Origin: Bacillota bacterium
Lineage (GTDB): Bacteria; Bacillota; Clostridia; Peptostreptococcales; Anaerovoracaceae
Reading direction: 5' to 3'
Assembly: GCA_017522185.1 (NCBI GenBank)
Contig: JAFWZZ010000030.1
Span: 1-64,000 of the forward strand
DNA length: 64,000 bases
Shown here in pieces: positions 1 through 26,524 of the stretch. The position numbers were made by a program, and so were the translations under genes. The notes below the pieces were generated by a model, which worked only from the letters and a program-made list of their open reading frames with translations, did no database searches and was not told the origin of the DNA. Positions within the stretch are counted from its first letter, which is position 1; each line of letters opens with the position of its first letter.

Positions 1-270
1 GACACAGATAAGCCGTCCGATACAGACAAACCGTCTGACACAGATAAGCCATCTGACACAGATAAGCCGTCCGATACAGACAAACCGTCTGACACAGACA
101 AACCGTCTGACACAGACAAACCAGCTGACACAGACAAACCGTCTGACACAGACAAACCGTCTGACACAGACAAACCAGCTGACACAGACAAACCGTCTGA
201 CACAGACAAACCGTCTGACACAGACAAACCAGCTGACACAGATAAACCAGCTGACACAGACAAGCCGGCT
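1..270 (+). repeat. 18-nt tandem repeat encoding D-T-D-K-P-[S/A]
   Basis: Fifteen in-frame 18-nt copies run without interruption and continue upstream of the window. Copies differ mainly at synonymous positions (GAC/GAT, AAG/AAA) and at the last codon (TCT/TCC Ser or GCT Ala). Such a tract is prone to copy-number change without breaking the frame. Confidence 0.95.
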
Positions 271-1089
271 GTAAAGCCAGTCATCAAGGTGGAAGGCACA
301 GAAACAGAAAAATGTGAAAACATCCTTGAAGAAACCGTAAACAAGATTATCGAAACGGTAATCAAGAATCCGGAAAACGGTGTTCAGATTGACAAGGCTG
401 TTGCAGATGCAATCAGGGAAACTATGACATCCGGTAAGAATGTATCTGTTGTCATCGAAGCAAAGACAGAGATTGTCAAGAAGACAGATGCCGAAAAGGT
501 ATTTGGCAAGAAAAACATTGAACTGGTAGAAACTGCTGCAAAAGATGCAGCGATTGCTCAGTATCTGGATCTCAACGTTTTCATGACAGTACAGGCAGAT
601 GGCAAGGAAGTTGCCAAAGGCAATGTTTCCAAGCTGGAAAAACCAATCAAGTTTACGATTTCTGTTCCAAGCGGCCTGGAAAAACCTGCTGACGGAATGG
701 TAAGAACCTTCTTTATCATCAGAGTACACGGCGAAGAAGTCACACGTATTCCAGTAACAGACAACGGTAACAATACCGTATCCTGGGAAACAGACCAGTT
801 CTCCACCTATGCATTAGCATACGAAGACGTTCCGGCTGCTGATGTACCGGCGGACGATGATAAGCCTGTGGTTGATGATAAGCCTGTGGTTGACGATGAA
901 CCTGCTGTTGACGACGAATCCATGACTGATGACGAAATTGTTGACAATGATATTATCGTCGAAGATGCGACAGACGATGAAGATTCCGAAACACCAGGAA
1001 CAGGCGATGACAATCATCTGCTTGCTTATGCATTCCTGTTATGCGCAGCACTGATGACATTTGTAATCGGCAGAAAAAGAGAAGAATAA
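1..1089 (+). CDS. Cell-wall-type surface protein, 5' end cut by window edge
   Basis: The reading frame is open from base 1, so the true start lies upstream; 362 residues are visible. Residues 1-90 are fifteen copies of a hexapeptide, D-T-D-K-P-[S/A], probably an extended wall-spanning linker. A globular domain of about 180 residues follows that I do not recognise. An acidic tail (repeated V-V-D-D-K-P and similar) comes next, then TPGTGD, a hydrophobic segment and the basic end GRKREE. That end resembles a sorting signal of the (S/N)PxTG kind known from clostridial class B sortases, so covalent attachment to peptidoglycan is inferred. It is the first of a co-directional series of exported-protein genes. 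No sortase gene lies in the window. The function of the globular part is unknown; the link to B12 uptake is by neighbourhood only. Confidence 0.8.
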   Translation, partial: DTDKPSDTDKPSDTDKPSDTDKPSDTDKPSDTDKPSDTDKPADTDKPSDTDKPSDTDKPADTDKPSDTDKPSDTDKPADTDKPADTDKPAVKPVIKVEGTETEKCENILEETVNKIIETVIKNPENGVQIDKAVADAIRETMTSGKNVSVVIEAKTEIVKKTDAEKVFGKKNIELVETAAKDAAIAQYLDLNVFMTVQADGKEVAKGNVSKLEKPIKFTISVPSGLEKPADGMVRTFFIIRVHGEEVTRIPVTDNGNNTVSWETDQFSTYALAYEDVPAADVPADDDKPVVDDKPVVDDEPAVDDESMTDDEIVDNDIIVEDATDDEDSETPGTGDDNHLLAYAFLLCAALMTFVIGRKREE

Positions 1090-1130
1090 ACCAACATGGC
1101 TTTTGGCCCTGTAAACAAGATTTACAAAGA

Positions 1131-1154
1131 CCTGCGGCAAATTTTTGCCGCAGG
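1131..1154 (+). terminator. Intergenic hairpin, possible terminator
   Basis: A perfect 10-bp GC-rich stem (CCTGCGGCAA with TTGCCGCAGG) and a 4-nt loop lie 42 nt after the stop of the first gene. Only a short CTTT follows, so termination is probably partial and the next gene may be read through. Confidence 0.45.
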
Positions 1155-1210
1155 CTTTGGACGTATATTAAGAAGGCATAGAAAGTAATGTTGGATAAGG
1201 AGATTGAATT

Positions 1211-2869
1211 ATGAAGAAAAAACTGATTTCTACAGTTCTTGCAACGATGCTGCTGTTAAGTACAACCGCATCGGCTATGGCTGCAAGTTTTCAGGTAAGC
1301 ACTGACAAAAATGTTGTCAATGCCGGAGAAAACGTGACAGTCACAGTAAATCTGGACAAAGAACTTACTGGAAATTTTAGAAACGTACAGGGTCAGCTGG
1401 GCTATGATACCAGCAGACTGACCTACGTATCTCATAAGATGGGCAGCCTATACCAGCATTACATGGCAAAAAATATGCCGTCAAAAAAGTATTTTACTTT
1501 TTCCAATACGGATATGAGCACGGCAGGATTTTCCTCGATGCCAAAAGGAAATGTCGTAACGGTTGTGTTTCAGACCAGTCAGAATATGAGTGAATCTCAT
1601 ATAACGGCTGCGTTTTCACTGAAATTAAGTGTACAGGACACGGCTGGGCATTCTGAAAAGTCGACATCATCGGCATCTGTGGTAGTCTGCAAAAGCCATA
1701 CATGGGATGGCGGAACCGTAACCACTGCACCAGGATGCAGCAGCAAAGGGGTCAAGTCTTACACCTGCACCTATCAGGGCTGTGGCGCTGTAAAAACAGA
1801 GCGCATTGACGAGACGGGGCATTCTTATGGAAACGGATACGTTTGCGGTACGTGTGGTCATGTGAACGAGGCCCTGAAGCCGGACCCAACACCGACCCCA
1901 GACCCAACACCGACCCCAGACCCAACGCCGACACCGGACCCAACACCGACCCCGGACCCAACACCGAGCCCGGAACCAACACCGACACCGGAGCCAACGC
2001 CAACACCAGACCCAGCACCGACACCGGAGCCAACGCCGACACCGGATCCAACGCCAACACCAGACCCGACGCCGACACCGGATCCAGCACCAACACCGGA
2101 TCCAACGCCGACACCAGATCCAACACCAACACCTTGTGCGCATAACTGGAAAGCTGCAACCTGCAAAGCAGCAAAAAGCTGCATCCTTTGTGGCGCGACA
2201 GAAGGTAAGGCATTAGGCCACAAAGCTGGAACTGTGAAAGTCACAAAGAAGGCAACGATGACGAAAGCCGGTACAAAAGTACAGAAGTGTACGAGATGCA
2301 ATGCGGTTGTAAAGACCATCAAAATCAAGCCGGCTAAGGTAGCCCTGTCCAAGAGCAGTTTTGTATATAATGGCAAGGTAATCGGCAGCAAGAAACTGCC
2401 AAAGGTCGTTGTAAGAGATGGCAGCGGCAAGAAAATTGCGGCGAAGTATTATACTGTAACAAAACCGAAGAACGTGAAGAAGATGAAGGCAATCGGCAGA
2501 TATGCTTACAAAATTACCTTCAAGAAAAACTGCAAGCAATACACCGGCTCCAAGACCGTTTACCTGCAGATTACACCGGCAAAGACTTCTATGAAATCAG
2601 TAAAAGGCGCGAAGAAGGCCGTAACTGTAAAATGGAAGAAGGCTGCGAAAATGCAGACCACCGGCTATCAGATTATGGTGGCAACCAACAGCAAGTTTAC
2701 CAAGAACAAGAAGACTGTATCCATCAAGGGCTACAAGAACATATCCAAGAAGGTAACCAAGCTGAAGGTGAAGACCAAGTATTATGTAAAGGTTAGAACT
2801 TATAAGACCGTAAAAGGTGTAAAGATTTACTCCAACTGGTCTAAGGTAAAGACCGTAAAAACAAAATAG
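1211..2869 (+). CDS. Secreted cohesin-domain protein with Pro-rich linker and Fn3-like C-terminus
   Basis: This 552-residue protein starts at ATG 1211, eight bases after AAGGAG. Residues 1-24 are a signal peptide ending ASAMAA. Residues 25-165 look like a cohesin-type beta-sandwich: an AGENVTVTV opening, then [11 protein letters not shown] and a GNVVTVVF strand. A small Cys/His-containing module follows (HTWDGG...CGTCGH, to about residue 220), then a T-P-D-P linker (224-308) and a second Cys pair module. The rest is a very Lys-rich Ig/Fn3-like region ending VKTVKTK. There is no sorting signal, so wall retention may be non-covalent. The first domain is clearly paralogous to that of the next gene (shared FRN[VL]QGQL and FTFSNTD). 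Cohesins bind dockerins, and a dockerin protein is encoded at 11793-16337; direct pairing is an inference. The cohesin call comes from pattern only. Confidence 0.8.
1880..2134 (+). repeat. Pro/Thr-rich linker repeat (T-P-[DE]-P)
   Basis: About 85 codons of alternating T-P and D-P / E-P dipeptides form an extended interdomain linker inside the preceding cohesin-domain protein. The tract leaves several long open frames on both strands that are composition artefacts. Confidence 0.95.
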
Positions 2870-2987: not shown

Positions 2988-3677
2988 ATGAAAAGAATGA
3001 TCACATTGTTGTTCCTGATGACGATGCTTTGTACCATGCCCGCAGCGGCAATGACTTCGACATTGGAACTTCATGCAGACAAAGACAGACTGGGAGAAAA
3101 AGAACAGATTGCCGTAACGGTTTACCTGTATGAGACCGTAACCGGTGAATTCCGCAATCTCCAGGGGCAGTTAACCTATGACACAGAAATCTTTTCCTAT
3201 GTGTCCCACCAAATGGGTGAGGCATACAGTCAGTATGCGGCGGCAGACATGGCAGAAAAGGGATTCTTCACATTCTCCAATACCGATTTTACCGACAAGG
3301 GATTTTCTGAAATCCAGGAAGGCACCCTGGTTACGGTTGTCTTTGAGACAAAAGAGAAACTGAAACGGAAAGAAAGAGATACCAAATTCGTGTTAAATAT
3401 GGACCTGCAGGATACCAGAGGCGTGAGCGAGACGTTCGCAAAAGAAGTGTCCATAAAAGTGTCAGGAAAAAACAATGCCGGACAGTCTGAAGCCGATCAG
3501 ACTGACATGGATCATGCTGCAGGTGAAGCAGTAGAGAATCCTGCAAAAGAAGACGCGGCGGGCCAGAGCTCTGAACCGCGCAACCTGGAAACAGGGATTG
3601 TAATAATGGGCGCAGGCTTCGCATTGGTCTGGCTTCTGTATAGAATTTGGAGCCGTAAGAAGGAGAAACGTACATGA
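2988..3677 (+). CDS. Membrane-anchored cohesin-domain protein
   Basis: The 229-residue product starts at ATG 2988 (AAAGGA seven bases upstream). A longer frame from 2922 lacks a ribosome site and would hide the signal peptide. Residues 1-20 are a signal peptide. Residues 22-160 repeat the cohesin-like domain of the preceding gene (FRNLQGQLTYD, FTFSNTD, GTLVTVVFETKE). A polar linker leads to one C-terminal membrane helix (about 200-218) and the basic tail RKKEKRT. The residues NLETG before the helix resemble a sorting motif only weakly, so I favour a transmembrane anchor facing outward. The stop overlaps the next start by 4 nt, so the two are probably translationally coupled. It could serve as a surface receptor for the dockerin protein at 11793-16337, an inference from domain type. 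Confidence 0.8.
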   Translation: MKRMITLLFLMTMLCTMPAAAMTSTLELHADKDRLGEKEQIAVTVYLYETVTGEFRNLQGQLTYDTEIFSYVSHQMGEAYSQYAAADMAEKGFFTFSNTDFTDKGFSEIQEGTLVTVVFETKEKLKRKERDTKFVLNMDLQDTRGVSETFAKEVSIKVSGKNNAGQSEADQTDMDHAAGEAVENPAKEDAAGQSSEPRNLETGIVIMGAGFALVWLLYRIWSRKKEKRT

Positions 3678-6600
3678 GCATAAAGGGTTTTATCCGAAAT
3701 GCAAAATTTCAAAAATACATCAGCTGGATTCTCATTGCAGCAATGGTGTGCGGACTGTGGGTTTCCGGGAACAGTCTTCATGTTTCCGGCCCGAAAGCCC
3801 CATTACCGGATGACGAGATGCAGATTCTGGCGGATTTGAACTTAGGTGAAGATGCGCTGAAAGCGGAACAGATGGACGAGCTGGATGAGAATGCGGACCG
3901 GGGCGGCCAGTCTGATCAGGAACAGCAGGAAGAACAGGAAAAAACGGATCAGCCCGAGCAGCAGGAAGAACAGGAGCAGCCGGACCAACCTGATGAACCA
4001 GAGCAGCCGGAAGAACCGAAGCAGCCGGACCAACCTGATGAACCAGAGCAGCCGGAGCAGCCGGACCAACCTGATGAACCAGAGCAGCCGGACGAGCCAG
4101 ATGAACCTGACCAGCCGGATGAACCGGAACAAAAACCGGATGACTCCGAGCAGCAGCCGGAAAACACAACCCCGGATGGCGACACATCCGATGAAAACAC
4201 GGAAGAGCCGGGAACCGGTGATGGAAACCAGGGTCAGGAAGACGGCATTCAGGGTGAACAGGGCGGCGAAACAGCCGAACTGAGCCTGGGCATGGTCATG
4301 ACCTGGCAGAAATACGGCAAGCACCCGAGAACCATCGTATGCAGTCCTTCCAACACGGTAAGGGGCAGCATCAATACGGCGCAGCTGGTAAAAAACGAAC
4401 TGGAATACGATTTTGCTTTGGCTGGCGAAGAAGCCTCCCATGCATCCATTACCAAGGTATGGATGAAAGCAGGGGACGAGGCAGCACGGGAAATTGACCA
4501 GCGGGGCCATGTGGAGATCCTGCTGGACAATGAAGCCGTTGGCCGGATCTATACCTTCCAGATTGAAACCCTGTGGAAGGGCAAAGACGGAAACGGCAGG
4601 ACATCAGAGCAGCAGCTGACCTTTACCTATGAAATCCATTTTGCCTATGCTTTGGATTTGGAATTAGAACTGAACTGGCAGAAAGCAGACAAAGAGTCTG
4701 CAAGCCTGCGATGCATGGCAAACAAAGCAGTGGCAAAGACCATCGAAAGTTATGAGCTGGCAAAAGGCGCATTTACATATACGCCAAAACTGAGCGGCAG
4801 CCTGGCGAAGGATGCGAAATTTGTTAGCGGCGAATACAGCACGGCATCGGGAAAGAAAGGCACCCTGGATCCTTCCGGCGGCACTTTGACGCTGGAAGGT
4901 GTCGGAAAAGACAACCAGGATACCTACTACCTGACCTTCACGGCAGAGGTAATCGATGAAGACGGCATCCTGCAAACCGTCATTTACCGTATCACCATCC
5001 TGTATGTGGAGACGGTAGATGTGCAGCTTGGCTTCACATGGCTGGAGAAAGGCACCGTGCCAAGAGATATGATCTGTCAGGCAGATGGAACCGTATCCAC
5101 CACCGTGAAGAACAACCAGCTTTCTGCCGGTGCTGTGAAATACGAAATGAAACTGATCGGAAACGACAGCGATGAGGCAAGAATCCTGAGCATCAGCTAT
5201 ACTTCCGAAGGAAGCGATGGGGGCAGCTTAGCGGAAAGCGGCGCACTGCCTTTGATTTTGCCGAAAGCCAAAGCTTCCAACACCTATGAGATCACAGCGG
5301 TTGTGCTCCATGGCGGAAAGAAACTGAAATACCAGATTTATCTGCGCTATGTCATGGACACCCAGCTGGAGCTGATTTACACCATCAAAGAAGGCGGCGG
5401 TACCTTGGAGAAATCCATCCTCTGCGAAAACGGAAAGACCAAGACGGCAGAAGCCATTTATGATGATCAGCTGACCAAAGGCGTTCTGCCTTACAGCATG
5501 GTGCTGAAGGGCGAAGGCAATCTGGAAATCACATCGGTAAAATGCTATCAGTCCGGAAGCGGCAAAGTCATCAGCCTGCAGCCGGAAGGCCAGCTCACCT
5601 TATTATTAAATAACGGAAAAACAGGAGAAAACACGTTCACGGTAATGGCGAAAGATGATGCAGGGACAGAATACGTCTTCTACATCAACATGCAGTATAA
5701 GCACCGTGGACAGAACAATATCAAGATTACGACCAATATGACCAATGGTCAAACCATCGTCAACGAAACCTCTACCAACTTCAATGTGAAGGCGTGGAGC
5801 GAAGACGAGAGCGGCAAGGTTGTCAGCTACATCCCTGCCAACGGCGTAGATACCAAGCTGATTGTAAAACTGGATGGAGAAACTTTGAAATATGTCAGCA
5901 CTTCCGGTGCGTCATCTGAATTTATCCTTTATCCAAAGAACCCGCCGAAGGGCGACAAAAACGACCACACCATCTACGTTTATGCGGAAGACGCATACGG
6001 CAATTACGGCGAACTGACCCTGAACCTGAAGGGACAGCGAAAGCAGGCAGGACAGAAGAAAGGCAAGGCAACCATCCGCATCGACATGACCGTACTGGGG
6101 CTGGGTGTGGTGGAAACCATGTCCTACGATGTTCTTGCGGATGAACCGATTTCCTACTCTGTTGCAAAAGCTGTATTAGGCGAAGATACCGGAGATCCGT
6201 TCGGCGCCGCTAAGGATGCCATGGGCTGGGGGGGCCGTTATACGGGGACTTTGGATGTAGGTTTCTATTTGCAGAGTCTGACGCCGGGACTATCAGCCAA
6301 TGGACTGATGGGCAGCAGCTGGAACAAATACGGCAAGACAGAGAAAGAAGTTCTTGCAGCCATTGATGATGAATTTGGAAAAGGAACCGGACTGGCGACA
6401 CTATGGCGCTGTATCTACAGAAACGGTTTGAATAAGAGCAGCGGAACCAGCGGCTCCTATGGCGAATTTGACTTTACCAGCGGCTCCGGATGGCTGTTCT
6501 CCCTGGACGGCACCTATTATCCGGGACTGGCCATGTCAGAATACAGCCTGGAAGACGGCGATGTGCTGACACTGCGCTATACACTGGCACATGGATGGGA

Positions 6601-7408
6601 TGTAGGCGGCGGAACCAAAGGCTACGGAAATACCGTTGGCTATTGTGTGACCGCTCTGGATGGAAAATATTACATCAAACATCAGATGGAGCACAAGACC
6701 AATACAGACGGAACCAAGAGATATGTATGCCGCTGCTGCGGCCTGGAAGAAGGCTGTCTCCACGAGAACCTGACCAAGAAAAACCTGGGCGATGGAACCC
6801 ATATCACGTATTGCGGCGACTGTCAGACCGAAATTGGAGATCCGGAACTGCATAACTGGGATCAGACGGCAGAAGCACATCGATGCAATGGCTGTGATGC
6901 AGGAGAAGAACATCGCTGGAAAGAAAAAGAAGGGTCCGACACGGCAACCTGCACTGAGGGCGGCAGACATACCGTCTTCTGTACAGTATGCAATATGACA
7001 AAAGAAGAAGACAGTCCGGCCAAGGGTCATAAGCTGAACAACAGATGGAATCACAACAAGACAGAGCATTATCAGAAATGTTCTGTATGTAAGGAAGTCA
7101 TCGAATCCAGCAAAGGCAGCCATCAGTATGGCGCATATGATGCGGACTTTGAAGACTGGTTCTGTGTGATTTGCGATGCAGGCCATGACTGGGATTACTG
7201 TGGCAACGGAGATAATCTGGTCATTGTACCGGAAGAAACTACCTGCCAGCACGCAGTATATCGCTGCACAGACTGCGGCCTGCGTCTGGAAAAAGACGGT
7301 GTCTTTGAAGACTATCACAACTATACAGGCGGCGTCTGCATCTGCGGCAAAAGCGATCCGGCAGTTTTGCCGGAGGAAGAAACTGTAGAAATAACGGAAC
7401 AGGAGTAA
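3674..7408 (+). CDS. Large surface protein with tandem beta repeats and a transcobalamin-like DUF4430 domain
   Basis: The 1244-residue protein begins with a single N-terminal membrane segment (about 15-33). An acidic P-D-Q-P-D-E-P linker (about 75-165) follows. Three or four tandem units of roughly 110 residues come next (about 200-660), each opening with a hydrophobic strand, a TW/NW/TI pair and one Cys (TIVC, LRC, MIC, ILC). Another beta domain follows to about 800. Residues about 805-975 match the DUF4430 pattern: GSGWLFSLDG, then YSLEDGDVLTLRYT. This family resembles the C-terminal beta domain of transcobalamin and intrinsic factor. The last 230 residues carry many CxxC and Cx2CG pairs with His, like small zinc ribbons. 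The ATG overlaps the upstream stop by 4 nt. I infer a cobalamin-binding surface role; the ligand is not provable from sequence. Confidence 0.8.
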   Translation: MSIKGFIRNAKFQKYISWILIAAMVCGLWVSGNSLHVSGPKAPLPDDEMQILADLNLGEDALKAEQMDELDENADRGGQSDQEQQEEQEKTDQPEQQEEQEQPDQPDEPEQPEEPKQPDQPDEPEQPEQPDQPDEPEQPDEPDEPDQPDEPEQKPDDSEQQPENTTPDGDTSDENTEEPGTGDGNQGQEDGIQGEQGGETAELSLGMVMTWQKYGKHPRTIVCSPSNTVRGSINTAQLVKNELEYDFALAGEEASHASITKVWMKAGDEAAREIDQRGHVEILLDNEAVGRIYTFQIETLWKGKDGNGRTSEQQLTFTYEIHFAYALDLELELNWQKADKESASLRCMANKAVAKTIESYELAKGAFTYTPKLSGSLAKDAKFVSGEYSTASGKKGTLDPSGGTLTLEGVGKDNQDTYYLTFTAEVIDEDGILQTVIYRITILYVETVDVQLGFTWLEKGTVPRDMICQADGTVSTTVKNNQLSAGAVKYEMKLIGNDSDEARILSISYTSEGSDGGSLAESGALPLILPKAKASNTYEITAVVLHGGKKLKYQIYLRYVMDTQLELIYTIKEGGGTLEKSILCENGKTKTAEAIYDDQLTKGVLPYSMVLKGEGNLEITSVKCYQSGSGKVISLQPEGQLTLLLNNGKTGENTFTVMAKDDAGTEYVFYINMQYKHRGQNNIKITTNMTNGQTIVNETSTNFNVKAWSEDESGKVVSYIPANGVDTKLIVKLDGETLKYVSTSGASSEFILYPKNPPKGDKNDHTIYVYAEDAYGNYGELTLNLKGQRKQAGQKKGKATIRIDMTVLGLGVVETMSYDVLADEPISYSVAKAVLGEDTGDPFGAAKDAMGWGGRYTGTLDVGFYLQSLTPGLSANGLMGSSWNKYGKTEKEVLAAIDDEFGKGTGLATLWRCIYRNGLNKSSGTSGSYGEFDFTSGSGWLFSLDGTYYPGLAMSEYSLEDGDVLTLRYTLAHGWDVGGGTKGYGNTVGYCVTALDGKYYIKHQMEHKTNTDGTKRYVCRCCGLEEGCLHENLTKKNLGDGTHITYCGDCQTEIGDPELHNWDQTAEAHRCNGCDAGEEHRWKEKEGSDTATCTEGGRHTVFCTVCNMTKEEDSPAKGHKLNNRWNHNKTEHYQKCSVCKEVIESSKGSHQYGAYDADFEDWFCVICDAGHDWDYCGNGDNLVIVPEETTCQHAVYRCTDCGLRLEKDGVFEDYHNYTGGVCICGKSDPAVLPEEETVEITEQE

Positions 7409-7412: not shown

Positions 7413-8348
7413 ATGAATTCCAAAATCAGTGAAATCTTAAACGAAATAGAAAAAGTTATTGTAGGGAAAAACGAAATCGTCGAGAAAGTGCTGATGGCAG
7501 TGCTTTCCGGCGGCCACGTATTGATGGAAGACGTACCAGGCACAGGCAAAACAACCACTGCCATGACCTTTGCCAAGGTTCTGGGACTGGACAGCAGGCG
7601 TATCCAGTTTACCTCTGACACGGTGCCTTCTGACATTATCGGTTACAGTGTTTACGACAAAGAAACCAACAGTTTCGTGTTTAAGCCGGGTGCGGTGATG
7701 ACCAACCTGCTGCTGGCCGACGAAATCAACCGTACCTCCAGCAAGACCCAGTCTGCTTTGCTGGAGGCCATGGAAGAAATGCGCGTGACTGTAGATGGAC
7801 AGACTTATGACCTGCCGCAGCCATTCGTGGTACTGGCCACACAGAACCCGGTCGGATCTGCAGGCACCCAGATGCTGCCAAGCGCGCAGATGGACCGTTT
7901 CATGATCAAAATCAGCATGGGTTATCCTGACTTTGCCAGCCAGGTAAACATCCTGAAGGATCGTCACAGAGAAAACCCGCTGGACCGTATCCATGCAGTC
8001 GTATCCAAAGCGGAGTTGCAGGATTTGATCGAAGAAGCTTCAGCTGTAGAAGTACAGGACAGCGTGTATGAATACGTAACCCATCTGACTCAGGCAACCA
8101 GAGATCACGAAATGGTCCAGCTGGGGGTCAGCCCGAGAGGGGCACTGGCAGTCTGCAGAATGGCGAAAGCCCATGCTTTCCTGGAGGGAAGAGATTTTGT
8201 CATTCCGGAAGACGTGGCAGCGGTATTTGGCGATGTATGTTGTCACAGACTGGTGCTTTCCACGAAAGCGAGAATGTTGGAAGAGCGTCCGGAAAGCGTC
8301 ATCAAAGCGGTTCTGGAAGGCGTTGACATGCCGGTAATTAAGAAATAA
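7413..8348 (+). CDS. MoxR-family AAA+ ATPase
   Basis: This 311-residue cytoplasmic ATPase has the AAA+ motifs of the MoxR/RavA group: Walker A GTGKTT (residues 43-48), Walker B LLADEINR (about 100-107), sensor-1 ATQNP, and a C-terminal lid with SPRG (sensor 2). MoxR proteins act as chaperones or insertion factors, often for surface or metal-binding complexes, and are commonly encoded with DUF58 and transglutaminase-like membrane proteins, as here. It starts 4 nt after the preceding stop with AGGAG upstream, so it is in the same operon. Its place between surface-protein genes suggests it helps assemble or mature that complex; this is inferred from context. Confidence 0.93.
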   Translation: MNSKISEILNEIEKVIVGKNEIVEKVLMAVLSGGHVLMEDVPGTGKTTTAMTFAKVLGLDSRRIQFTSDTVPSDIIGYSVYDKETNSFVFKPGAVMTNLLLADEINRTSSKTQSALLEAMEEMRVTVDGQTYDLPQPFVVLATQNPVGSAGTQMLPSAQMDRFMIKISMGYPDFASQVNILKDRHRENPLDRIHAVVSKAELQDLIEEASAVEVQDSVYEYVTHLTQATRDHEMVQLGVSPRGALAVCRMAKAHAFLEGRDFVIPEDVAAVFGDVCCHRLVLSTKARMLEERPESVIKAVLEGVDMPVIKK

Positions 8349-17606: not shown

Positions 17607-17612
17607 CCAAGA

Positions 17613-18631: not shown

Positions 18632-20256
18632 GCTTTACTTATCCACTGGCTGAGAGAAAAGCCCTGGATGATGTAAGCTTTGATATAGAACCCAGCCAGT
18701 TTGTGGTGGTATGCGGCAAGTCCGGCTGCGGCAAGAGCACGCTGCTGAAACAGCTGAAGAAAAACCTGATTCCTTACGGCCTGCTGGAGGGCGAGGTCCT
18801 CTACTGTGGGACGCCGGTGGAAGATCTGGACGACAGACGCAGTGCGTGCGAAATCGGTTTCGTACAGCAGAATCCGGACAACCAGATTGTGACAGACAAA
18901 GTATGGCACGAACTGGCCTTTGGCCTGGAGAGTCTGGGCCTGCCCAATGCAGCGATCAAAAGAAGAGTTGCCGAAATGGCCAGCTATTTCGACATCCAGA
19001 CCTGGTTCCGCAAAGGTGTCAACGAGTTATCCGGCGGCCAGAAACAGCTGCTGAATCTGGCATCTATTATGGCCATGCAGCCGAAAGTATTGATTCTGGA
19101 TGAACCGACATCCCAGCTGGACCCGATTGCGGCATCGGAATTCCTGCAGACGGTATATAAGATCAATCGTGACCTGGGAACGACAGTAATCATCTCCGAA
19201 CATCGCCTGGAAGAACTGTTCCCCATGGCGGACAAAGTCATGGTCATGGACAAAGGCAGGATCTTGGCTTTTGAAGATCCGCGCAAAATCGGTGAATTCC
19301 TGGCCGATGTGGACGGAAACAGACATCCCATGTTCTACGGTCTGCCGTCAGTGATGCGCATTTTCTCTGAGATTTCCCCGGCAGAACAGAGCCCTTTGAC
19401 AATCAGAGAAGGCCGTCTGAAGATGGAAGAATTACTCGACGGCAAACACGACAAAATCAACCACAACGTGATGCCGCCAAAGGCGCTGCCACAGCAAAAG
19501 GTAAAGAATCCAGTCATCTCCATCAAAGATGCCTGGTTCAAATACAGCAGAGAAAGCGGAGATGTCCTTCGCGGCCTCAATCTGGATGTGGAAGAAAACC
19601 AGTGGTACTGCCTCCTCGGGGGCAACGGTGCCGGTAAGAGCACCACACTGAAGATGATCTCCGGCATCAAAAAGCCCCAGAGAGGTTCCGTCAAAGTGGA
19701 CCGCACAAAGCTTTCCATGCTGCCCCAAAATCCACAGTCCGTCTTCACGGAAATTACGGCAGAGGAAGAACTGCTGGAAGCACTCCATTATGACAGAATT
19801 CCGGATCAGGAAAAAATCGACAGGGTGAACGCCATGCTGCAGCTGATGGAAATCGAGCACCTGCGCAAGTCCAATCCTTATGACCTGTCCGGCGGGGAAC
19901 AGCAGAGACTGGCCTTGGGCAAGATTCTCTTACTGGAACCAAAGATTCTCCTTCTGGACGAACCGACAAAGGGGCTGGATCCTTTCTTCAAGAGAACCCT
20001 GGCAGGTATCCTGCGCAAACTGGTAGACAGCGGCGTGAGCCTGTTCATGGTTTCCCATGATATCGAGTTCTGCGCTGAATACGCAGACCGCTGTGCTATG
20101 TTCTTTGATGGAGACATCGTGTCCGAAGGTGAACCGAAGGAATTCTTTAACGGAAACAACTTCTATACCACCACGGCTAATAAGATTGCCCGTGAATGGA
20201 ACGAAGAAGTCATAACCTGCGAGGAGGTGGCAGCTTGGCTAAAAGATACGATATAA
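18604..20256 (+). CDS. ECF transporter ATPase, two ABC domains fused
   Basis: The 550-residue protein carries two complete ABC ATPase domains. The first has Walker A GKSGCGKST (residues 38-46), signature LSGGQ (about 142) and Walker B VLILDEPTSQLDP. The second has Walker A GGNGAGKST (about 339-347), signature LSGGEQQRLALG and Walker B ILLLDEPTKGLDP. In many ECF systems the two ATPases (A and A') are separate genes; here they are one chain, as in several clostridial B12 and thiamin-type ECF modules. The ATG is preceded by AGGAG, lies inside the end of the T gene, and its own end overlaps the S-component start by 22 nt. Translational coupling of all three subunits is likely. Confidence 0.95.
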   Translation: METIRLRNVSFTYPLAERKALDDVSFDIEPSQFVVVCGKSGCGKSTLLKQLKKNLIPYGLLEGEVLYCGTPVEDLDDRRSACEIGFVQQNPDNQIVTDKVWHELAFGLESLGLPNAAIKRRVAEMASYFDIQTWFRKGVNELSGGQKQLLNLASIMAMQPKVLILDEPTSQLDPIAASEFLQTVYKINRDLGTTVIISEHRLEELFPMADKVMVMDKGRILAFEDPRKIGEFLADVDGNRHPMFYGLPSVMRIFSEISPAEQSPLTIREGRLKMEELLDGKHDKINHNVMPPKALPQQKVKNPVISIKDAWFKYSRESGDVLRGLNLDVEENQWYCLLGGNGAGKSTTLKMISGIKKPQRGSVKVDRTKLSMLPQNPQSVFTEITAEEELLEALHYDRIPDQEKIDRVNAMLQLMEIEHLRKSNPYDLSGGEQQRLALGKILLLEPKILLLDEPTKGLDPFFKRTLAGILRKLVDSGVSLFMVSHDIEFCAEYADRCAMFFDGDIVSEGEPKEFFNGNNFYTTTANKIAREWNEEVITCEEVAAWLKDTI

Positions 20257-21170
20257 CCCAGAGCGAAGCTGCGAGAAAGAAGAGACTGCAGCTTTCCGCC
20301 CTGCTCATTTTAGTAGCCATGCCCCTGACCATCTTTGTTGGGGCGCGGTTCCTGCAGGATCAGTACATGCTGGTCAGCCTGCTGCTGCTGGTGTTCACCA
20401 TGGCACCTTTCTTCATGGTTTTTGAAAAACGAAAACCCAAGGCGAGAGAAATCGTCCTCATCGCCATGATGAGTGCCATCACGGTTTGCACCCACATGTT
20501 TTTCCACATCACCATTCCGATTCAGATCGGGACGGCGATGATCATCATATCTGGCATTTCCCTGGGACCTGAAGCAGGCTTTCTTATCGGAGCCATTTCC
20601 CGTTTCGTGGCCAACTTCTATATGGGACAGGGGACCTGGACGCCATGGCAGATGTTCTGCTGGGGTATTCTGGGATTCCTGGCAGGTCTGGCTTTTAACA
20701 AAGTGGACCTGGACCAGCTGAAATCCAGAAGCTTCAAGATGGTCATGGGACCGGTGATGTGTATTTTGTTCAGCATTCTGGCGGCATACGTCTGCTACCA
20801 GATCTGGCCGGGAGCGGATTCGTCCTTCTTCGGCTGGAGATTATACGCTTTCGGCCTGGCGGGCCTTGTTGCAGGGGTTCTTCTGCAGAGAAAACGTCTG
20901 CCGGTGGACAGCGTGACGTTGACTTTGTTTACATTCTTTGCAACTTTTATCATATACGGCGGCGTGATGAATCTCTGTGCGCTGGTCACTTCGGCCATGC
21001 TGCCGGGAGGTCAGGCCATTACGGTAGAGAGCCTGAGAGTTCTGTATCTCTCCGGTGCACCATATGACCTGTACCACGCCTTCACCGCATCTCTGTGCGT
21101 CTTCCTCTTCGGAAACAGCATGATCAAAAAGCTGGAAAGAATCAAAATCAAATACGGTATTTATAAGTAA
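20235..21170 (+). CDS. ECF transporter substrate-binding S component, probably cobalamin-specific
   Basis: The likely start is TTG 20235, seven bases after GAGGAGG, giving 311 residues (MAKRYDITQSEAARKKR...). An in-frame ATG at 20196 lies inside the ATPase gene without a ribosome site. The protein has one pair of N-terminal helices, then the six-helix S-component core, with A-x-x-x-A-like packing residues in IVLIAMMSAITVCTH and the conserved loop GPEAGFLIGAISRFVANFYMG / GTWTPWQMFCWGILGF in outline. The length is greater than RibU or ThiT because of the N-terminal addition. Specificity for cobalamin is inferred from the upstream riboswitch and the DUF4430 and alpha/alpha-domain neighbours, not from ligand residues. 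Confidence 0.88.
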   Translation: MAKRYDITQSEAARKKRLQLSALLILVAMPLTIFVGARFLQDQYMLVSLLLLVFTMAPFFMVFEKRKPKAREIVLIAMMSAITVCTHMFFHITIPIQIGTAMIIISGISLGPEAGFLIGAISRFVANFYMGQGTWTPWQMFCWGILGFLAGLAFNKVDLDQLKSRSFKMVMGPVMCILFSILAAYVCYQIWPGADSSFFGWRLYAFGLAGLVAGVLLQRKRLPVDSVTLTLFTFFATFIIYGGVMNLCALVTSAMLPGGQAITVESLRVLYLSGAPYDLYHAFTASLCVFLFGNSMIKKLERIKIKYGIYK

Positions 21171-21183: not shown

Positions 21184-22203
21184 ATGAATGGAAACACAAT
21201 GAAAAAGAAAATGATGTCTCTCCTGCTGGTTGCAGCCATGGTGCTGACAACTCTGGGTGTGACAACCTTAGGAAACACAGCTTATGCAGCTGAAAACGAA
21301 ATCGCAATCACCGTGACGGTCAGCAATGCCGGTGAGCTGGCAAAGGATGCAGCAGGCAACGTGGCAGCAAACCTGCCGGTCACAGTTCCTGCCGATACAA
21401 ATGGCACAGCGACAGTCGATGCGGCACTGAAGGCACTGCACGAAACATATTGTCCAGGTGGATATGTGACATCCGAATCTGCATACGGTCTGGCTGTACA
21501 GAAGCTGTGGGGCGTTGAAAACGGCGGCAGCTACCTGTTTGCGATTAACGGTGTCGGTTGCAGCTCCGGCGTAGGCGGTGATTACGTAGGCAATGGTGAT
21601 CAGCTGACTGCCATCGTGATGAAAGACATGACTTACTGGTCTGACTTAGTTGCATCTTTTGATAAGAGTGCGGTAACCACAAAGGTCGGTGAACAGGTGG
21701 AACTGGCGCTGACTTATGACGCAGTGACTTATGACGAAAACTGGAATGCGGCACACGCTGCAACACCGGTTGTTGGTGCCAACGTATCCGTTGTTGGTGA
21801 AGCAGAGCCTTTCGCAGTAACCGATACCATGGGTAAAGCATTTGTATCTTTTGATGAAGCAGGCACTTATATCGTAACAGCTTCCGGCGCGGTGAAGATG
21901 CAGGTGCAGGACTGGTCCCAGGGTGGCGCTTATGTAGAGGCAGATGCACCAATCAGTGCACCTGCATGCGTGATTACGGTTGAAGCTGAAGAAGAAGAGC
22001 TGGAAACACCGGTCGTTGATGAGGACGAAGAGCCGGTTGTTGAAGACGAAGAGCAGGCTGTAGAAGAAGAGCAGGAACCTGTAGCTGAAGAGGAAGAAGG
22101 CGAAAAAGCGCCTGCAACAGGCGATGCATCCCAGATGGCAATGTATCTGCTGGTGATGATCGGTGCAGCAGGAGCTGCTTCTGTTTTAAAGAAGCAGAAA
22201 TAA
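21184..22203 (+). CDS. Wall-type DUF4430 (transcobalamin-like) protein
   Basis: This 339-residue protein follows AAAGGAG and begins with a signal peptide (to about residue 36, AYAA). Residues about 50-140 fit the DUF4430 beta-grasp pattern: T-V-D-A-A-L, GGSYLFAINGVGCSSG and NGDQLTAIVM. An Ig-like domain follows (about 160-255), then a Glu-rich spacer and APATGD, a hydrophobic helix and KKQK. That end matches a [S/N/A/T]PxTG-type sorting signal. It lies in the riboswitch-controlled operon, 13 nt after the S component. I infer a wall-displayed B12-binding beta domain that hands cobalamin towards the ECF transporter. Confidence 0.85.
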   Translation: MNGNTMKKKMMSLLLVAAMVLTTLGVTTLGNTAYAAENEIAITVTVSNAGELAKDAAGNVAANLPVTVPADTNGTATVDAALKALHETYCPGGYVTSESAYGLAVQKLWGVENGGSYLFAINGVGCSSGVGGDYVGNGDQLTAIVMKDMTYWSDLVASFDKSAVTTKVGEQVELALTYDAVTYDENWNAAHAATPVVGANVSVVGEAEPFAVTDTMGKAFVSFDEAGTYIVTASGAVKMQVQDWSQGGAYVEADAPISAPACVITVEAEEEELETPVVDEDEEPVVEDEEQAVEEEQEPVAEEEEGEKAPATGDASQMAMYLLVMIGAAGAASVLKKQK

Positions 22204-22222: not shown

Positions 22223-23794
22223 ATGAGAAGAAGATTGATTTCACTTCTTGTCATCCTGTGTATGGGCATGTCAGTACTGGCATGTCCATGTCTGGTTTTC
22301 GGAAACAGCTCTGTTTCCTGGAACACAGCGATGACAAAGACAGAAACCTATATCGCAAAAACAATAGAAAATCCCGGCTATGGCAGCGAATGGACCGTTA
22401 CGGCCATGGCCAGAGACGGCGGCGCCGTGAAATATGGCACCTATGAGAAGTATTACAACAGCATCCTCCGTCAGGTGAAAGATGCCAAAGGCGTTTTGGA
22501 CAGCCGGAAGGCCCTGCCTTATACCAAGGTGATTCTGGCGTTAACTGCCATCGGAAAGGACCCGCAAAATGTCGGCGGATACAACCTGCTGGAGGGCCTT
22601 GCTGACTTTGATAAAGTCATGCTGACCGGAACCAACGGGCCGATTTTCGCTTTGCTGGCACTGGACAGCGGCAAGTACGATATCCCTGCGGCACCTGCAG
22701 GTAAAACCCAGACCACCAGGGATCTGCTGGTAGACACCATTCTCAGCCGTGAACTGGAAGGCGGCGGATTTACTGTAGGCATGAGCTCCTATGGTCCGGA
22801 GACAGACATTACGGCTATGGCGATTCAGACCCTGGCACCATACAGAGAACGTGCGGACGTGCAGGCGGTCATTGACCGTGCTTTAGATGTCCTGTCCAAG
22901 AAGCAGGGCAGTGACGGCAGCTATTCTGATTACGGTACAAAGTCCTGCGAAAGTATCGCCCAGGTGATGATGGCTTTGATTGCGCTGGATCTGGATCCGC
23001 TGACCGACAGCCGCTTTGTGAAGAACGAGAATACTTTGATGGATGCCTTACTGCGGTTTTATGTATCCGGAGGCGGCTTCCGTCATGTGCTGAAGACCAC
23101 TGCAGGCTACGATGCACCGATCAACGGCATGGCGACAGAGCAGGCCTACGCGGCACTGGGCGCGTACAAGAGATTTATGAACGGAGACAACTTTATCTAC
23201 GATATGACTGACGGCATGCCCGTTTCCCGCCCGGCCCTGGTGACACAAAAGACACCGGCCCGCGGTCTGGGACAGGCGACCGTGAAGTGGAGCAAAGTTG
23301 CCGGCGCCAAAGGGTACCAGATTCAGTATGGTACCAACAAGAACTTCAGTGGTGCTAAGCATGTCAATGTGGGTTCTGTGTCGACTTTGAGCAAGACCCT
23401 TAAGAATCTGAACAAGTCCAAGACCTGTTATTTCAAGGTGAGAGCCTATAAGCTGGATGGGGCGGGCAACAAAATCTGGGGCCAGTTCAGCAGCACAAAA
23501 TCATGCGTGCCAAACGGCAAGGTCACAGGGCTGACGCTGAAGTCGCCGAAGACCAAGCTTTTGAAGGTCTCCTGGACGAAAGTTACCGGGGCCAAAGGGT
23601 ACCAGGTGAAATATGCGACCAATTCCGGTTTCAAGAATAGCAAGACTGCTGCGACAACTTATGGATATAAGACGTTGAAGTCTTTGAAGAAAGGCAAGAC
23701 TTACTGGGTAAAGGTCAGAGCCTATCAAGTTAATGCAAATGGAACAAAATCTTACGGTGCTTACAGCGCGGTAAAGAAACTAAAAGTAAAATAA
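22223..23794 (+). CDS. Secreted intrinsic-factor-like alpha/alpha protein with two Fn3 domains
   Basis: The 523-residue product begins with a signal peptide (to about residue 28). Residues about 35-325 form the same helical repeat domain as the lipoprotein at 16356-17306: NPGYGSEWTV, VKDAKGVLDSRK, LALTAIGKDPQNVGGYNLLE, GSYSDYGTKSCESIAQVMMAL in outline. This fold class includes the cobalamin-binding alpha domain of intrinsic factor. Two Fn3 repeats follow (about 340-430 and 432-523), each with KGYQ[IV][QK]YxTN and a Tyr-rich KVRAY strand. The end is Lys-rich and has no sorting motif. It lies between two DUF4430 genes under B12 control. A pair of alpha-domain and beta-domain proteins jointly holding B12 is the attractive reading, but is inferred. 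Confidence 0.87.
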   Translation: MRRRLISLLVILCMGMSVLACPCLVFGNSSVSWNTAMTKTETYIAKTIENPGYGSEWTVTAMARDGGAVKYGTYEKYYNSILRQVKDAKGVLDSRKALPYTKVILALTAIGKDPQNVGGYNLLEGLADFDKVMLTGTNGPIFALLALDSGKYDIPAAPAGKTQTTRDLLVDTILSRELEGGGFTVGMSSYGPETDITAMAIQTLAPYRERADVQAVIDRALDVLSKKQGSDGSYSDYGTKSCESIAQVMMALIALDLDPLTDSRFVKNENTLMDALLRFYVSGGGFRHVLKTTAGYDAPINGMATEQAYAALGAYKRFMNGDNFIYDMTDGMPVSRPALVTQKTPARGLGQATVKWSKVAGAKGYQIQYGTNKNFSGAKHVNVGSVSTLSKTLKNLNKSKTCYFKVRAYKLDGAGNKIWGQFSSTKSCVPNGKVTGLTLKSPKTKLLKVSWTKVTGAKGYQVKYATNSGFKNSKTAATTYGYKTLKSLKKGKTYWVKVRAYQVNANGTKSYGAYSAVKKLKVK

Positions 23795-23795: not shown

Positions 23796-25136
23796 ATGGA
23801 CAAAGATTTTGAAAAGAAAGTAAAACAAAAGAGAATCCGCACCATCGCCGTGGCCGTTGTCATCCTGGCAGCGGTGATTTATCTGATCACCGGCACAAAG
23901 GTGGAGAAGGCTGATTACACGGACTCTCTGAAAAAAGAAATTAAGGCGGCACAGGAGCTTTATGCTGCCAACAAGGATCATACCGGCAATGGATCCGGTC
24001 AGTATGCAGCCTACACGATTTTGAAATTCGAAAAGGATATCGCCAAGGCTGAAGCGGTTGCAGCCGATGAGAACAGTGAGTATCATGCAAAGAAGACTGC
24101 TTATGAGACACTGAAGGCACAGGCTGATACATTTAAGAAAGACCAGAATACACTAGTGTTAAATGAAGACGATGTGGCTGCTTTGATGGCGGGAAATGAA
24201 CGGAAAACCGTAGAAACGGAGCTGGAAAACCAGCAGAAGATTGTTTATACCATTGACGGCAGCACCCTGAAAACCGCAGCAGATATGAACCTGATGGCGA
24301 GAGCGGAAGGTCCATATTATGCGGAAATAAACGAAATCCTGGCTGGGAAAAAACTGCAGGGCCAGGTGGTTTCCTTTTATCAGGAAGGGTCCTTTGGTGG
24401 AAAAATTAAGGTTCTGACACCGTTTTATAGTGAAGAAGAAACAAAGGGGTATGCGTACAAAATCGACCCGGAAAAAGGCAAATTAACCTTTGTTTCCAAT
24501 GCGGACATCGACATGGAAGCACAGACTGTAGCCTTCTCTGTAAAGGAAGGCGGCGACTATGTGGTATTAACGAAGAAGCTACACAAAGACAAGAAAACAG
24601 TAGCGGTAAAGCCGGATACGGAAGAAGACAATTATGACAGCCAGACGGAATCCGATGAGGGCACCGTTGAAACACCGGATCAGGATGTGCAGAATGACGG
24701 CGAAAATGAACAGCAGGCTGCTGCACCGGAATCCGATGGGATTGCTGTATCTCTGTACATCCGCTGCGATACACTGGCGGCAGATTTGTCAAAACTGAGA
24801 GATCCGTCGCTGGAAAGCTATGTACCTGCTGATGGCGTGATTCTGGCCTTAAACGAGGTAAACGTGACAAAGGGAGAATCCGTATACGATGTCCTGGACA
24901 GAGTCTGCAGAGACAAGGGCATTCATCTGGAAGCAGTCTACACGCCAAATTACGGTGCCGACTATATTGAAGGCATCAACTATCTGTACGAATTCGATGC
25001 AGGTGAGCAGAGCGGCTGGATGTATACGGTAAACGGTGTCTTCCCGAACTACGGCTGCTCCGACTACATTCTGGAAGATGGGGACAGCATTGTCTGGGCT
25101 TACACCTGTGACATGGGAAAGGATTTAGGCAAGTAG
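23796..25136 (+). CDS. Membrane-anchored DUF4430 (transcobalamin-like) protein
   Basis: The 446-residue protein starts at ATG 23796, directly after the upstream stop (TAA-T-ATG) with no clear ribosome site, so it probably depends on translational coupling. A cytoplasmic basic start and one helix (about 17-33) anchor it. A helical region (40-115), a beta region and an acidic Q/E/D spacer (about 265-310) follow. The C-terminal 130 residues form the DUF4430 domain: T-K-G-E-S-V-Y-D-V-L, GEQSGWMYTVNGVFPNYG and LEDGDSIVWAYTCDMG. That domain is like the beta half of transcobalamin. It ends the riboswitch-controlled operon and may sit close to the ECF transporter in the membrane. Confidence 0.87.
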   Translation: MDKDFEKKVKQKRIRTIAVAVVILAAVIYLITGTKVEKADYTDSLKKEIKAAQELYAANKDHTGNGSGQYAAYTILKFEKDIAKAEAVAADENSEYHAKKTAYETLKAQADTFKKDQNTLVLNEDDVAALMAGNERKTVETELENQQKIVYTIDGSTLKTAADMNLMARAEGPYYAEINEILAGKKLQGQVVSFYQEGSFGGKIKVLTPFYSEEETKGYAYKIDPEKGKLTFVSNADIDMEAQTVAFSVKEGGDYVVLTKKLHKDKKTVAVKPDTEEDNYDSQTESDEGTVETPDQDVQNDGENEQQAAAPESDGIAVSLYIRCDTLAADLSKLRDPSLESYVPADGVILALNEVNVTKGESVYDVLDRVCRDKGIHLEAVYTPNYGADYIEGINYLYEFDAGEQSGWMYTVNGVFPNYGCSDYILEDGDSIVWAYTCDMGKDLGK

Positions 25137-25139
25137 CGT

Positions 25140-25168: not shown

Positions 25169-25199
25169 AATAGTGTAATTTGATACAATCTTATGTTCC

Positions 25200-25372
25200 G
25201 TTTTCTCGCATTTTTGTGACGGGAAGCGGCTAAGAGGGAAGCAGGTGAAAGTCCTGCGCGGTCCCGCCACTGTAATGGGGGAGCCTGATCCGGATGCCAC
25301 TGCGGCTGCTGCCGTGGGAAGGCGGATGAGGCGGAGAACCCGGAGCCAGGAGACCTGCATAAGATTTACGTC
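25200..25372 (+). promoter_or_regulatory. Cobalamin riboswitch 2
   Basis: The leader shows the canonical aptamer core: CTAAGAGGGAAGCAGGTG, AAGTCCTGCGCGGTCCCGCC, ACTGTAATGGGGGAGC, GTGGGAAGGCGGATG and the B12 box GCCAGGAGACCTGC. It is more canonical than the first copy, with which it shares GCTAAGAGGGAAGCAGGTG. It lies in the 422-nt gap between the DUF4430 gene and the TIM-barrel gene and is followed by terminator-like hairpins. Cobalamin is expected to repress the downstream genes. Confidence 0.96.
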
Positions 25373-25420
25373 CAACCTTCCGGCGGAGAACCGGAAAGCG
25401 GCACAAAAAAACATAACAGC

Positions 25421-25458
25421 AAATACGGGCTGTGGGTCATCCACAGCCCTTCGTATTT
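25421..25458 (+). terminator. Riboswitch 2 terminator
   Basis: AAATACG plus GGCTGTGG pair with CCACAGCC plus CGTATTT (3-nt bulge), followed by a TTTTG run. A further GAGGCAGG/CCTGCCTC hairpin (25509-25533) lies just before the ribosome site of the next gene and may take part in control. Confidence 0.75.
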
Positions 25459-25558
25459 TGAATTGTATTTTGGGAACGGATGACCGGGCTTTTCATTCTT
25501 TTTTACATGAGGCAGGCTTCGTCACCCTGCCTCAATTACATTTTAGGAGTAATCGACT

Positions 25559-26320
25559 ATGGATAAGAGTAAGATTTATATCGCTACATTTTCAGAACAC
25601 GCGGCGGAAACCGCGGCGAAATACGGTGTCAACCTGGAGCTGAACGACACCTGCATTTCCATGAGACTGGACCCGGAACATATGGACGTGACCCTGCGCT
25701 CCATGGAAAAGGAACTGACAAAGGCAGGCTCCCGCAATGCCATCGTGCACGGACCTTTCACGGAAATCATCCCGTCTGCCATCGACCACCGTGCTGTAGA
25801 ATTCGGTCTGCAGCGCCTGCAGGAAGCCTATGAGGCGACCGCTGCCATGGGACTGAACCGCATGGTGGTGCATACAGGATATATTCCGCTGATGTATCAC
25901 AAGAGCTGGCACCTGGAAAAATCCATCGAATTCTGGAATCGTTTCATGGAAGGCAAGCCGGCAGATTTTCAGCTGTATATCGAGAACGTCTTTGATGATG
26001 AGCCGCTGATGATGAAGGATCTGATCGACGGCCTGGACGATCCCCGTGTCCGCATGTGTCTGGATGTGGGACATGCCCATGTGGTGACCGTGCCGGAGTA
26101 CGATGTATACCAGTGGATTGAAGTGCTGGGCAGACGCATCGGCCACTTTCACCTCCACAACAACGACGGAACTGCCGACACACACCAGAGTATGGAAGAC
26201 GGCACGCTGGATATGGTCCGCGTACTGGCTGCCATCAAAGAGCACTGCGATGATGATGTGACCTTCACCATCGAGAGCCGCAAGAGCGAAGAAAACGTGA
26301 TTTGGATGCTGGAACACTAG
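25559..26320 (+). CDS. B12-regulated TIM-barrel protein (sugar isomerase / endonuclease IV-like fold)
   Basis: This 253-residue protein starts at ATG 25559 behind TAGGAG. It has the metal-site pattern of the xylose-isomerase-like / AP-endonuclease-2 superfamily: VHGPF, VVHTG, ENVFD, CLDVGHAH, HLHNNDG and a final TIES. These supply His, Glu and Asp ligands for divalent metals. Members are sugar-phosphate isomerases, epimerases and nucleases, and the substrate cannot be read from sequence. Unusually it sits directly behind a cobalamin riboswitch. It could therefore act on cobalamin, its nucleotide loop or a salvage product, or be a B12-independent stand-in for a B12-dependent step. That role is speculative. 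Confidence 0.85.
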   Translation: MDKSKIYIATFSEHAAETAAKYGVNLELNDTCISMRLDPEHMDVTLRSMEKELTKAGSRNAIVHGPFTEIIPSAIDHRAVEFGLQRLQEAYEATAAMGLNRMVVHTGYIPLMYHKSWHLEKSIEFWNRFMEGKPADFQLYIENVFDDEPLMMKDLIDGLDDPRVRMCLDVGHAHVVTVPEYDVYQWIEVLGRRIGHFHLHNNDGTADTHQSMEDGTLDMVRVLAAIKEHCDDDVTFTIESRKSEENVIWMLEH

Positions 26321-26335
26321 AAGGAGAAATTCACT

Positions 26336-26524
26336 ATGGCAAAGAAAGAAGAACGTTTTGTTATGATTCATGAAGAGGGAAAAGGCTTGAAACTGGAAGG
26401 CATTCGCTGCCTGTTTGTGGATAAAGAGACCGGTGTAACCTATTTAGGATGGCATTCTGGATATGGTAGTAGTATAACACCTCTAATCGATGCAGATGGG
26501 AAACCGGTAATTACAAAACTATAG
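26336..26524 (+). CDS. DUF6440 family small protein
   Basis: The 62-residue product follows AAGGAG and begins 15 nt after the TIM-barrel gene, so it shares the second riboswitch. The sequence has the pattern of DUF6440 proteins: KEERFVMIHEEGKG, then VDKETGVTYLGWHSGYGS and the TPLIDADGKPVI ending. There is no signal peptide or membrane helix. These small proteins are common in Firmicutes and their function is unknown. B12 control may be simple read-through from the gene before it. Confidence 0.75.
   Translation: MAKKEERFVMIHEEGKGLKLEGIRCLFVDKETGVTYLGWHSGYGSSITPLIDADGKPVITKL

Follow-up and report, generated by a model that had tools for sequence, protein, structure and literature searches.

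Burroughs et al. 2007 (PMC1796856) predicted B12 scavenging, by way of surface complexes, for bacterial surface proteins that carry SLBB and alpha/alpha-toroid domains and are encoded in CbiO/CbiQ operons, and also proposed that such proteins had been transferred to animals. The animal carriers intrinsic factor, transcobalamin, and haptocorrin join a toroid and a beta-grasp domain in one chain and deliver to a receptor, and the transcobalamin beta domain has been solved by itself with cyanocobalamin (title of 5np4). In Bacteroides, the beta-propeller protein BtuG captures B12 at the surface ahead of import as a partner of the outer-membrane BtuB (PMC6143338, PMC10404256, PMC6977713). Among energy-coupling factor (ECF) importers, ECF-CbrT of Lactobacillus delbrueckii (6FNP, PMC5997447) has its genes in an nrdJ-cbrS-cbrT-pduO cluster. 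Here we describe a locus in a 64,000-nucleotide stretch (hereafter the window) of a Bacillota bacterium of the family Anaerovoracaceae (GCA_017522185.1, contig JAFWZZ010000030.1, positions 1 to 64,000), which is contig C28 of a 2.12 Mb genome that is 99.1% complete. We consider it likely that this locus encodes a system that captures cobamides at a Gram-positive surface and imports them, working by the mechanism proposed below.

Our locus shares with the 2007 operons secreted or wall-anchored SLBB/DUF4430 proteins in several paralogues, alpha/alpha toroids, a CbiO-like ATPase with CbiQ, a beta-propeller fusion, and the usual lack of key B12 synthesis enzymes (PMC1796856), and its core idea is therefore not new. 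It differs in that the main text of that paper, figures and supplements aside, does not mention ECF, riboswitch, cohesin, dockerin, MoxR, transglutaminase, or AP endonuclease, and in that SLBB–toroid fusion, a common architecture there, gives way in the window to halves in separate proteins. The animal carriers likewise combine an alpha/alpha toroid with a transcobalamin-type beta-grasp (SLBB) domain, both of which occur here, but they are single chains, whereas the window encodes the halves as separate genes and would deliver to an ECF importer instead of a receptor. As with BtuG/BtuB, capture would take place at the surface ahead of import and involve a beta-propeller part; the window, however, shows Gram-positive wall signs and an ECF importer, and its toroid and DUF4430 folds differ from the BtuG-type propeller. 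The importer is, like ECF-CbrT, an ECF transporter with two ATPase domains, a T component, and an S component nearest CbrT, while its A, T, and S genes adjoin genes for extracellular binding proteins.

Our search of open-access literature turned up neither experiments on these proteins nor any connection between cohesin–dockerin modules and B12 uptake, and with subscription literature thinly covered this is weak evidence of absence. Within the same coverage, we did not find in print a B12 locus that holds its genome's only cohesins and dockerin in an order kept in another genus, a recurring MoxR–DUF58–transglutaminase trio that is once fused to a toroid, or a CbiR-like gene after a second riboswitch. 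The most interesting additions to the 2007 prediction are the cohesin–dockerin modules, the MoxR–DUF58–TgpA trio, and a spectrum of split and fused halves.

Alpha and Beta Halves and Their Riboswitches

A first-pass annotation of the window had proposed a surface B12-capture system built from split parts, with three DUF4430 proteins as beta halves and two alpha/alpha proteins as alpha halves surrounding a riboswitch-controlled ECF transporter, and a second B12 riboswitch following. The genes it named are intact plus-strand open reading frames (ORFs) with short gaps or overlaps, and each of these parts was recovered, one beta half in divergent form. The list below adds the CbiR-like gene behind the second riboswitch, which that annotation did not name:

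3674..7408, + strand: large secreted protein with a DUF4430-like (beta-half) domain at about residues 646–988 (relatives' profile)
16356..17306, + strand: alpha/alpha toroid (alpha-half) protein, likely a lipoprotein (lipobox LTGC, by eye; toroid profile, E 4.6e-114)
17423..17613, + strand: cobalamin riboswitch upstream of the ECF genes (RF00174, 116.8 bits)
17723..18631, + strand: ECF transporter T component (Pfam CbiQ, 4.2e-6)
18604..20256, + strand: ECF double ATPase with two ABC domains per chain (Pfam ABC_tran, two stretches, 6.7e-58)
20196..21170, + strand: ECF S component, nearest solved relative CbrT (6FNP; phmmer)
21184..22203, + strand: divergent DUF4430/SLBB beta-half protein (about residues 35–155) with a sortase-type tail, APATGD by eye (hhalign and model)
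22223..23794, + strand: secreted alpha/alpha toroid (alpha-half) protein (toroid profile, E 5.3e-113) with a C-terminal fn3-type region (Pfam fn3, 8.1e-8)
23796..25136, + strand: DUF4430 (beta-half) protein, probably tethered via an N-terminal membrane segment (Pfam DUF4430, 1.6e-20)
25176..25376, + strand: second cobalamin riboswitch (RF00174, 124.2 bits)
25559..26320, + strand: CbiR-like AP-endonuclease-2 TIM-barrel protein (Pfam AP_endonuc_2, 5e-21)

Earlier profiles held window sequences, making the E-values of window proteins partly a matter of construction; the values quoted come from repeats with the window sequences left out, using 177 relatives' domains for the toroid profile and 210 for DUF4430. 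The two toroid proteins share 46% identity, and both carry N-terminal hydrophobic, signal-like segments. Pfam detects DUF4430 in one of the three beta proteins (23796–25136), and the domain in 3674–7408, which lies beyond Pfam's reach, was found with the relatives' profile (E 1.1e-17). The remaining protein, 21184–22203, has no Pfam DUF4430 match and a DUF4430 profile E of 1.8 (4.5 minus window rows). Profile–profile comparison of its own family with DUF4430 by hhalign gave a probability of 93 (E 3.5e-7), or 82 (E 1e-5) in a strict version that dropped rows also matching DUF4430 (toroid control, 0.3), and a domain model of moderate confidence (predicted local distance difference test, pLDDT, 73.5) had transcobalamin as its best PDB matches (E 1.7e-3, probability 1.00). 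On these grounds we judge it a divergent DUF4430 protein. The N-terminal start of 11793–16337 reached an hhalign probability of only 61 and possibly carries an extra DUF4430-like domain. Elsewhere in the genome, a small DUF4430 protein with a lipobox-like start by eye (L011, 9303–9734), on a contig without a riboswitch match, may bind some other ligand.

Both window riboswitches cover positions 1–189 of RF00174, for which the gathering threshold is 31.5 bits, and they are two of six cobalamin riboswitches genome-wide. We asked how far this arrangement extends in 116 loci found by the toroid protein alone. These comprise 76 from genome contigs (out of 96 relatives, the best 80 were retained) and 40 regions of the same family, hand-picked as toroid rather than fn3-only matches from 99 family genomes, 62 of which gave a match in the toroid-protein search, some fn3-only. 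Two duplicate pairs (L081/L137 and L065/L125, neither in the riboswitch count) leave 114 distinct loci, and because the loci span anything from about 3.6 to 21 kb, absences are soft. DUF4430, toroid, and ECF genes, the combination that the first-pass annotation proposed for a gene-neighborhood check, recur together widely: DUF4430 is present in 108/116 loci, and in 103/116 it is fused to the toroid ORF or lies within 100 bases of it on the same strand. Toroid and DUF4430 share one chain in 58/116. ECF T or A genes occur in 88/116 and an S relative in 80/116.

Riboswitches recur with them. A cobalamin-riboswitch core model, built from 14 sequences drawn from the window, the host genome, and seven of these loci, matches 77/116 loci and 70/109 of those outside its building set. 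It matched 0/36 cohesin/dockerin control regions (542 kb), which were hand-picked from family cohesin and dockerin matches; a more permissive regular expression picked out a possible riboswitch in one of them (L208). In 73/116 loci, a toroid or DUF4430 ORF is preceded on the same strand by a match no more than 6 kb away; there are 85 such matches, at a median distance of 297 bases. Rfam full models confirmed the riboswitch in 7/7 loci first tested; in a second batch of eight sources they found a Cobalamin or AdoCbl riboswitch in L250, L153, L154, and L142, the last missed by the core model, and none in L251, L252, L064, and L140. The protein behind the AdoCbl riboswitch of L154 (14926–19512) has two divergent DUF4430-type domains and cell-wall-binding repeats.

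Fold Comparison with Animal B12 Carriers

The bacterial toroid and DUF4430 proteins appear linked to the animal carriers through fold comparison only. We modeled a natural alpha–beta fusion from a relative (L061; pLDDT 86.4), and every one of its 15 best PDB matches is a transcobalamin, haptocorrin, or intrinsic factor structure (E 1.8e-11 to 1.4e-8). Its beta domain aligns to 5np4 with a template modeling (TM) score of 0.79 (target) and a root-mean-square deviation (rmsd) of 1.8 Å. In sequence searches, phmmer with 16356–17306 gave squalene cyclases and chance ubiquitin-type matches and no animal carrier, a search with 23796–25136 gave nothing relevant to these carriers, the DUF4430 profile recovered none of them, and a profile of the fusion gave intrinsic factor at no better than E 1.1.

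The idea of a split carrier is supported in part. The intrinsic-factor-family fold, with the toroid modeled in a relative instead of the window, the frequent fused chains, and the cobalamin riboswitches speak for it. Weighing against it, the model of the fusion does not place its two domains as the animal carriers do (rmsd 9–15 Å over both).

ECF Importer and B12 Physiology

The ECF transporter expected between the surface genes lies at 17723–21170. Its S component matches 6fnp_A with a phmmer E of 9.6e-7 (runner-up 4hzu_S, 0.0018), and this similarity to CbrT, together with the riboswitch, suggests cobalamin as the substrate. CbiC, a marker of corrin-ring synthesis, has no match in the 99.1% complete genome, which holds five B12-binding-domain matches and thus resembles that of a B12 user dependent on uptake. 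The host probably cannot make B12, a single marker family being thin proof. A riboswitch also precedes a BtuFCD-like set on contig C21 (assigned by eye from ORFs), which would make the present locus a second uptake route.

The gene behind the second riboswitch bears on what is taken up. CbiR is a cobamide-remodeling phosphodiesterase (PMC7733943), and the product of 25559–26320 is "CbiR-like" only, as its 36.3 bits against NCBIfam NF041277 fall below the cut-off of 105 and below its 45 bits against a deoxyribonuclease IV model, itself short of a cut-off of 244. The system may instead scavenge corrinoid precursors or other cobamides (cobinamide, pseudo-B12) rather than B12, with the CbiR-like enzyme and salvage genes finishing the cofactor. 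L134, L122, and L156 each have a homologue close to ECF genes, and L155 has one that follows a riboswitch match, which fits such a role, and B12 or precursors were already allowed by Burroughs et al. 2007 (PMC1796856). The model scores tell against it, and ligand range is unreadable from sequence; we regard precursor scavenging as a serious possibility that falls somewhat short of probable.

Upstream Genes and Conservation of Gene Order

Assigned genes from base 1 to 26320 all lie on the plus strand with short gaps or overlaps, interrupted by the two cobalamin riboswitches. The first-pass annotation did not mention the cohesins, the dockerin, the MoxR–DUF58–TgpA trio, or the three riboswitches on the contig described after the list. 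The genes not listed above are:

1..1089, + strand, open at the window start: C-terminal part of a giant secreted protein, starting in DTDKPS repeats and ending in TPGTGDD, a hydrophobic stretch, and RKREE (sortase-type tail, by eye)
1211..2869, + strand: secreted cohesin protein with an fn3-like C-terminal part (Pfam Cohesin, 3.8e-8, 34.1 bits)
2988..3677, + strand: second cohesin protein with a hydrophobic, basic tail (Pfam Cohesin, 25.3 bits); start provisional, taken as the first ATG of the frame
7413..8348, + strand: MoxR-type AAA+ ATPase (Pfam AAA_3, 6.6e-57)
8368..9504, + strand: DUF58-type protein (weak Pfam match, 0.065; family recurrence in other loci)
9519..11777, + strand: TgpA-like membrane protein with a transglutaminase fold (Pfam TgpA_N, 1.3e-14; Transglut_core, 1.4e-8)
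11793..16337, + strand: secreted protein with cadherin-like, PQQ beta-propeller, and Big_3 parts and a C-terminal dockerin at 16146–16298 (Pfam)

The window start and the end of contig C18 carry the same repeats with an exact in-frame overlap of 139 bases, and an exact degenerate pattern for the repeat hit nothing in the genome but these two contig ends. We infer that C18 very probably adjoins the window upstream and holds the start of the giant gene. It has three further cobalamin riboswitches, which precede, in order, two small genes (one PF04071), an 89-residue ORF (L009, 8473–8742, between riboswitches two and three), and the giant gene. A DUF4430 domain suspected by eye in the giant protein was matched by neither profile nor Pfam.

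The gene order of the window locus is kept on a single contig (C72, 33.8 kb) of G412, a genome of another genus: riboswitch, zf-like gene, riboswitch, giant protein with sortase-type tail, cohesin, cohesin, DUF4430 giant, MoxR, DUF58, TgpA, propeller with dockerin, toroid, DUF4430, ECF-T, and ECF-A/S. This supports the join of C18 to the window and suggests that riboswitches lead the cohesin–dockerin genes. In both genera a gene for a cysteine-rich small domain (PF04071) stands behind a cobalamin riboswitch (L009, 7645–7926; L250, 3423–4016), in L250 as the C-terminal part of a longer ORF. Farther along the window are an FMN (flavin mononucleotide) riboswitch at 42999–43118 and a large signal recognition particle (SRP) RNA at 32947–33177, both unrelated to the B12 locus.

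The MoxR–DUF58–TgpA Trio

The family of the window's DUF58-type protein is also found flanked by MoxR and TgpA in six further loci among the 116 and in G412, and the complete trio is found in 6/116 loci plus G412. MoxR–DUF58–TgpA trios also occur outside B12 loci. They could be an independent cell-wall or secretion module that shares only a promoter with the capture genes, an account with which the small number of complete trios agrees, as do related operons described in bifidobacteria. On the other side, a riboswitch stands directly before MoxR in L153, and L140 encodes a TgpA-like transglutaminase-fold membrane protein and a B12-type toroid in one chain (7690–10602). An independent module remains plausible to us, if on balance doubtful.

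Cohesin and Dockerin Modules

Cohesin and dockerin are classically cellulosomal. The window has Pfam cohesin and dockerin domains in common with type I cohesin–dockerin assemblies (cellulosomes) but, unlike cellulosomes, sets them in a riboswitch-marked B12 locus, with no glycoside hydrolase or other carbohydrate enzyme recognized among the 17 window proteins scanned. The two cohesins (cut-off 24.1 bits) and the dockerin (34.9 bits, cut-off 22.9) score above their Pfam cut-offs, and at E up to 0.1 the genome yields one dockerin and two cohesin matches, all inside this locus. Of the 99 family genomes, 22 have cohesin matches and 29 have dockerin matches (E ≤ 0.001). The window-type cohesin was found in 3/393 genomes of the order (the host, G412, and G461) and in none of the seven other same-genus genomes among those 393, so that the cohesin part is rare. 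The G461 contig (3.7 kb) carries both cohesins and the beginning of the large protein after them, with the DUF4430 part lying off the contig.

Dockerins were also sought in the genomes of 50 hand-picked loci among the 76 from genome contigs. In other Clostridia, one sits on a toroid–DUF4430 fusion (L085, 9728–12649) and one on a toroid protein (L076, 166–1329); the L076 genome has 60 dockerin matches, and its dockerin-toroid may therefore belong to a general assembly system.

The classical association of these modules would favor a polysaccharide-degrading or adhesion complex that merely shares the operon, as would the 36 control regions, which hold no toroid or DUF4430 match alongside the lack of riboswitch-model matches (two have an ECF-T match). 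We consider such a complex unlikely here: the genome has no other cohesin or dockerin, no glycoside hydrolase was recognized among the scanned proteins, G412 preserves both gene order and content behind a pair of riboswitches, and dockerins are attached to a toroid–DUF4430 fusion and a toroid in L085 and L076.

Least of all do we credit the toroids with being terpene-cyclase/prenyltransferase-type enzymes in an incidental B12 neighborhood, which is very improbable: a toroid alone does rank squalene or drimenyl cyclases first (sequence profile, VIA-align), but DXDD, the defining motif of class II terpene cyclases, occurs in 0/183 toroid domains (those of 192 profile matches with E < 1e-20 and more than 200 profile positions), and the signal-like segments of the window toroids, the DUF4430 fusions in 58/116 loci, and the riboswitch matches upstream in 73 loci speak against such a role.

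Proposed Mechanism and Implications

Cobalamin riboswitches permit expression when internal B12 is low, and the locus would then be switched on. Its toroid and DUF4430 proteins would stand at the surface as lipoprotein, membrane-tethered, or wall-linked forms, where alpha and beta proteins may bind a cobamide between or on them, in the manner of transcobalamin and intrinsic factor, whose fold they appear to share. The membrane-tethered beta protein and the alpha lipoprotein would pass the cobamide to the CbrT-like S component, the ECF ATPases would drive its import, and the CbiR-like enzyme may remodel imported cobamides. In the host and in relatives such as G412, cohesin/dockerin modules probably clip the beta-propeller protein into a surface complex, and the MoxR–DUF58–TgpA trio is a putative assembly, remodeling, or quality-control machine.

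Capture and import as such we hold to be likely. More tentative, and a little on the doubtful side, is the fuller picture of a riboswitch-controlled complex that snaps together, in which cohesins hold the dockerin-bearing propeller beside the split alpha and beta proteins, MoxR–DUF58–TgpA assembles or remodels the whole, and the captured cobamide feeds the CbrT-like ECF importer. If true, such a complex would parallel BtuG/BtuB on a Gram-positive surface and employ cohesin–dockerin in vitamin uptake.

Surface B12 capture in Gram-positive gut bacteria is little described in the literature covered here, and many of these bacteria have btuFCD but no btuB, which points to variants of the known machinery (review, PMC6977713). 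If our interpretation is correct, this locus offers a concrete and widespread candidate, in which parts resembling intrinsic factor, whether split or fused, are linked with B12 riboswitches and a CbrT-like importer. The 2007 prediction would become testable with defined protein pairs, and the finding would bear on the proposal that animal B12 carriers came from bacteria and would suggest that cohesin–dockerin assembly extends beyond carbohydrate breakdown.

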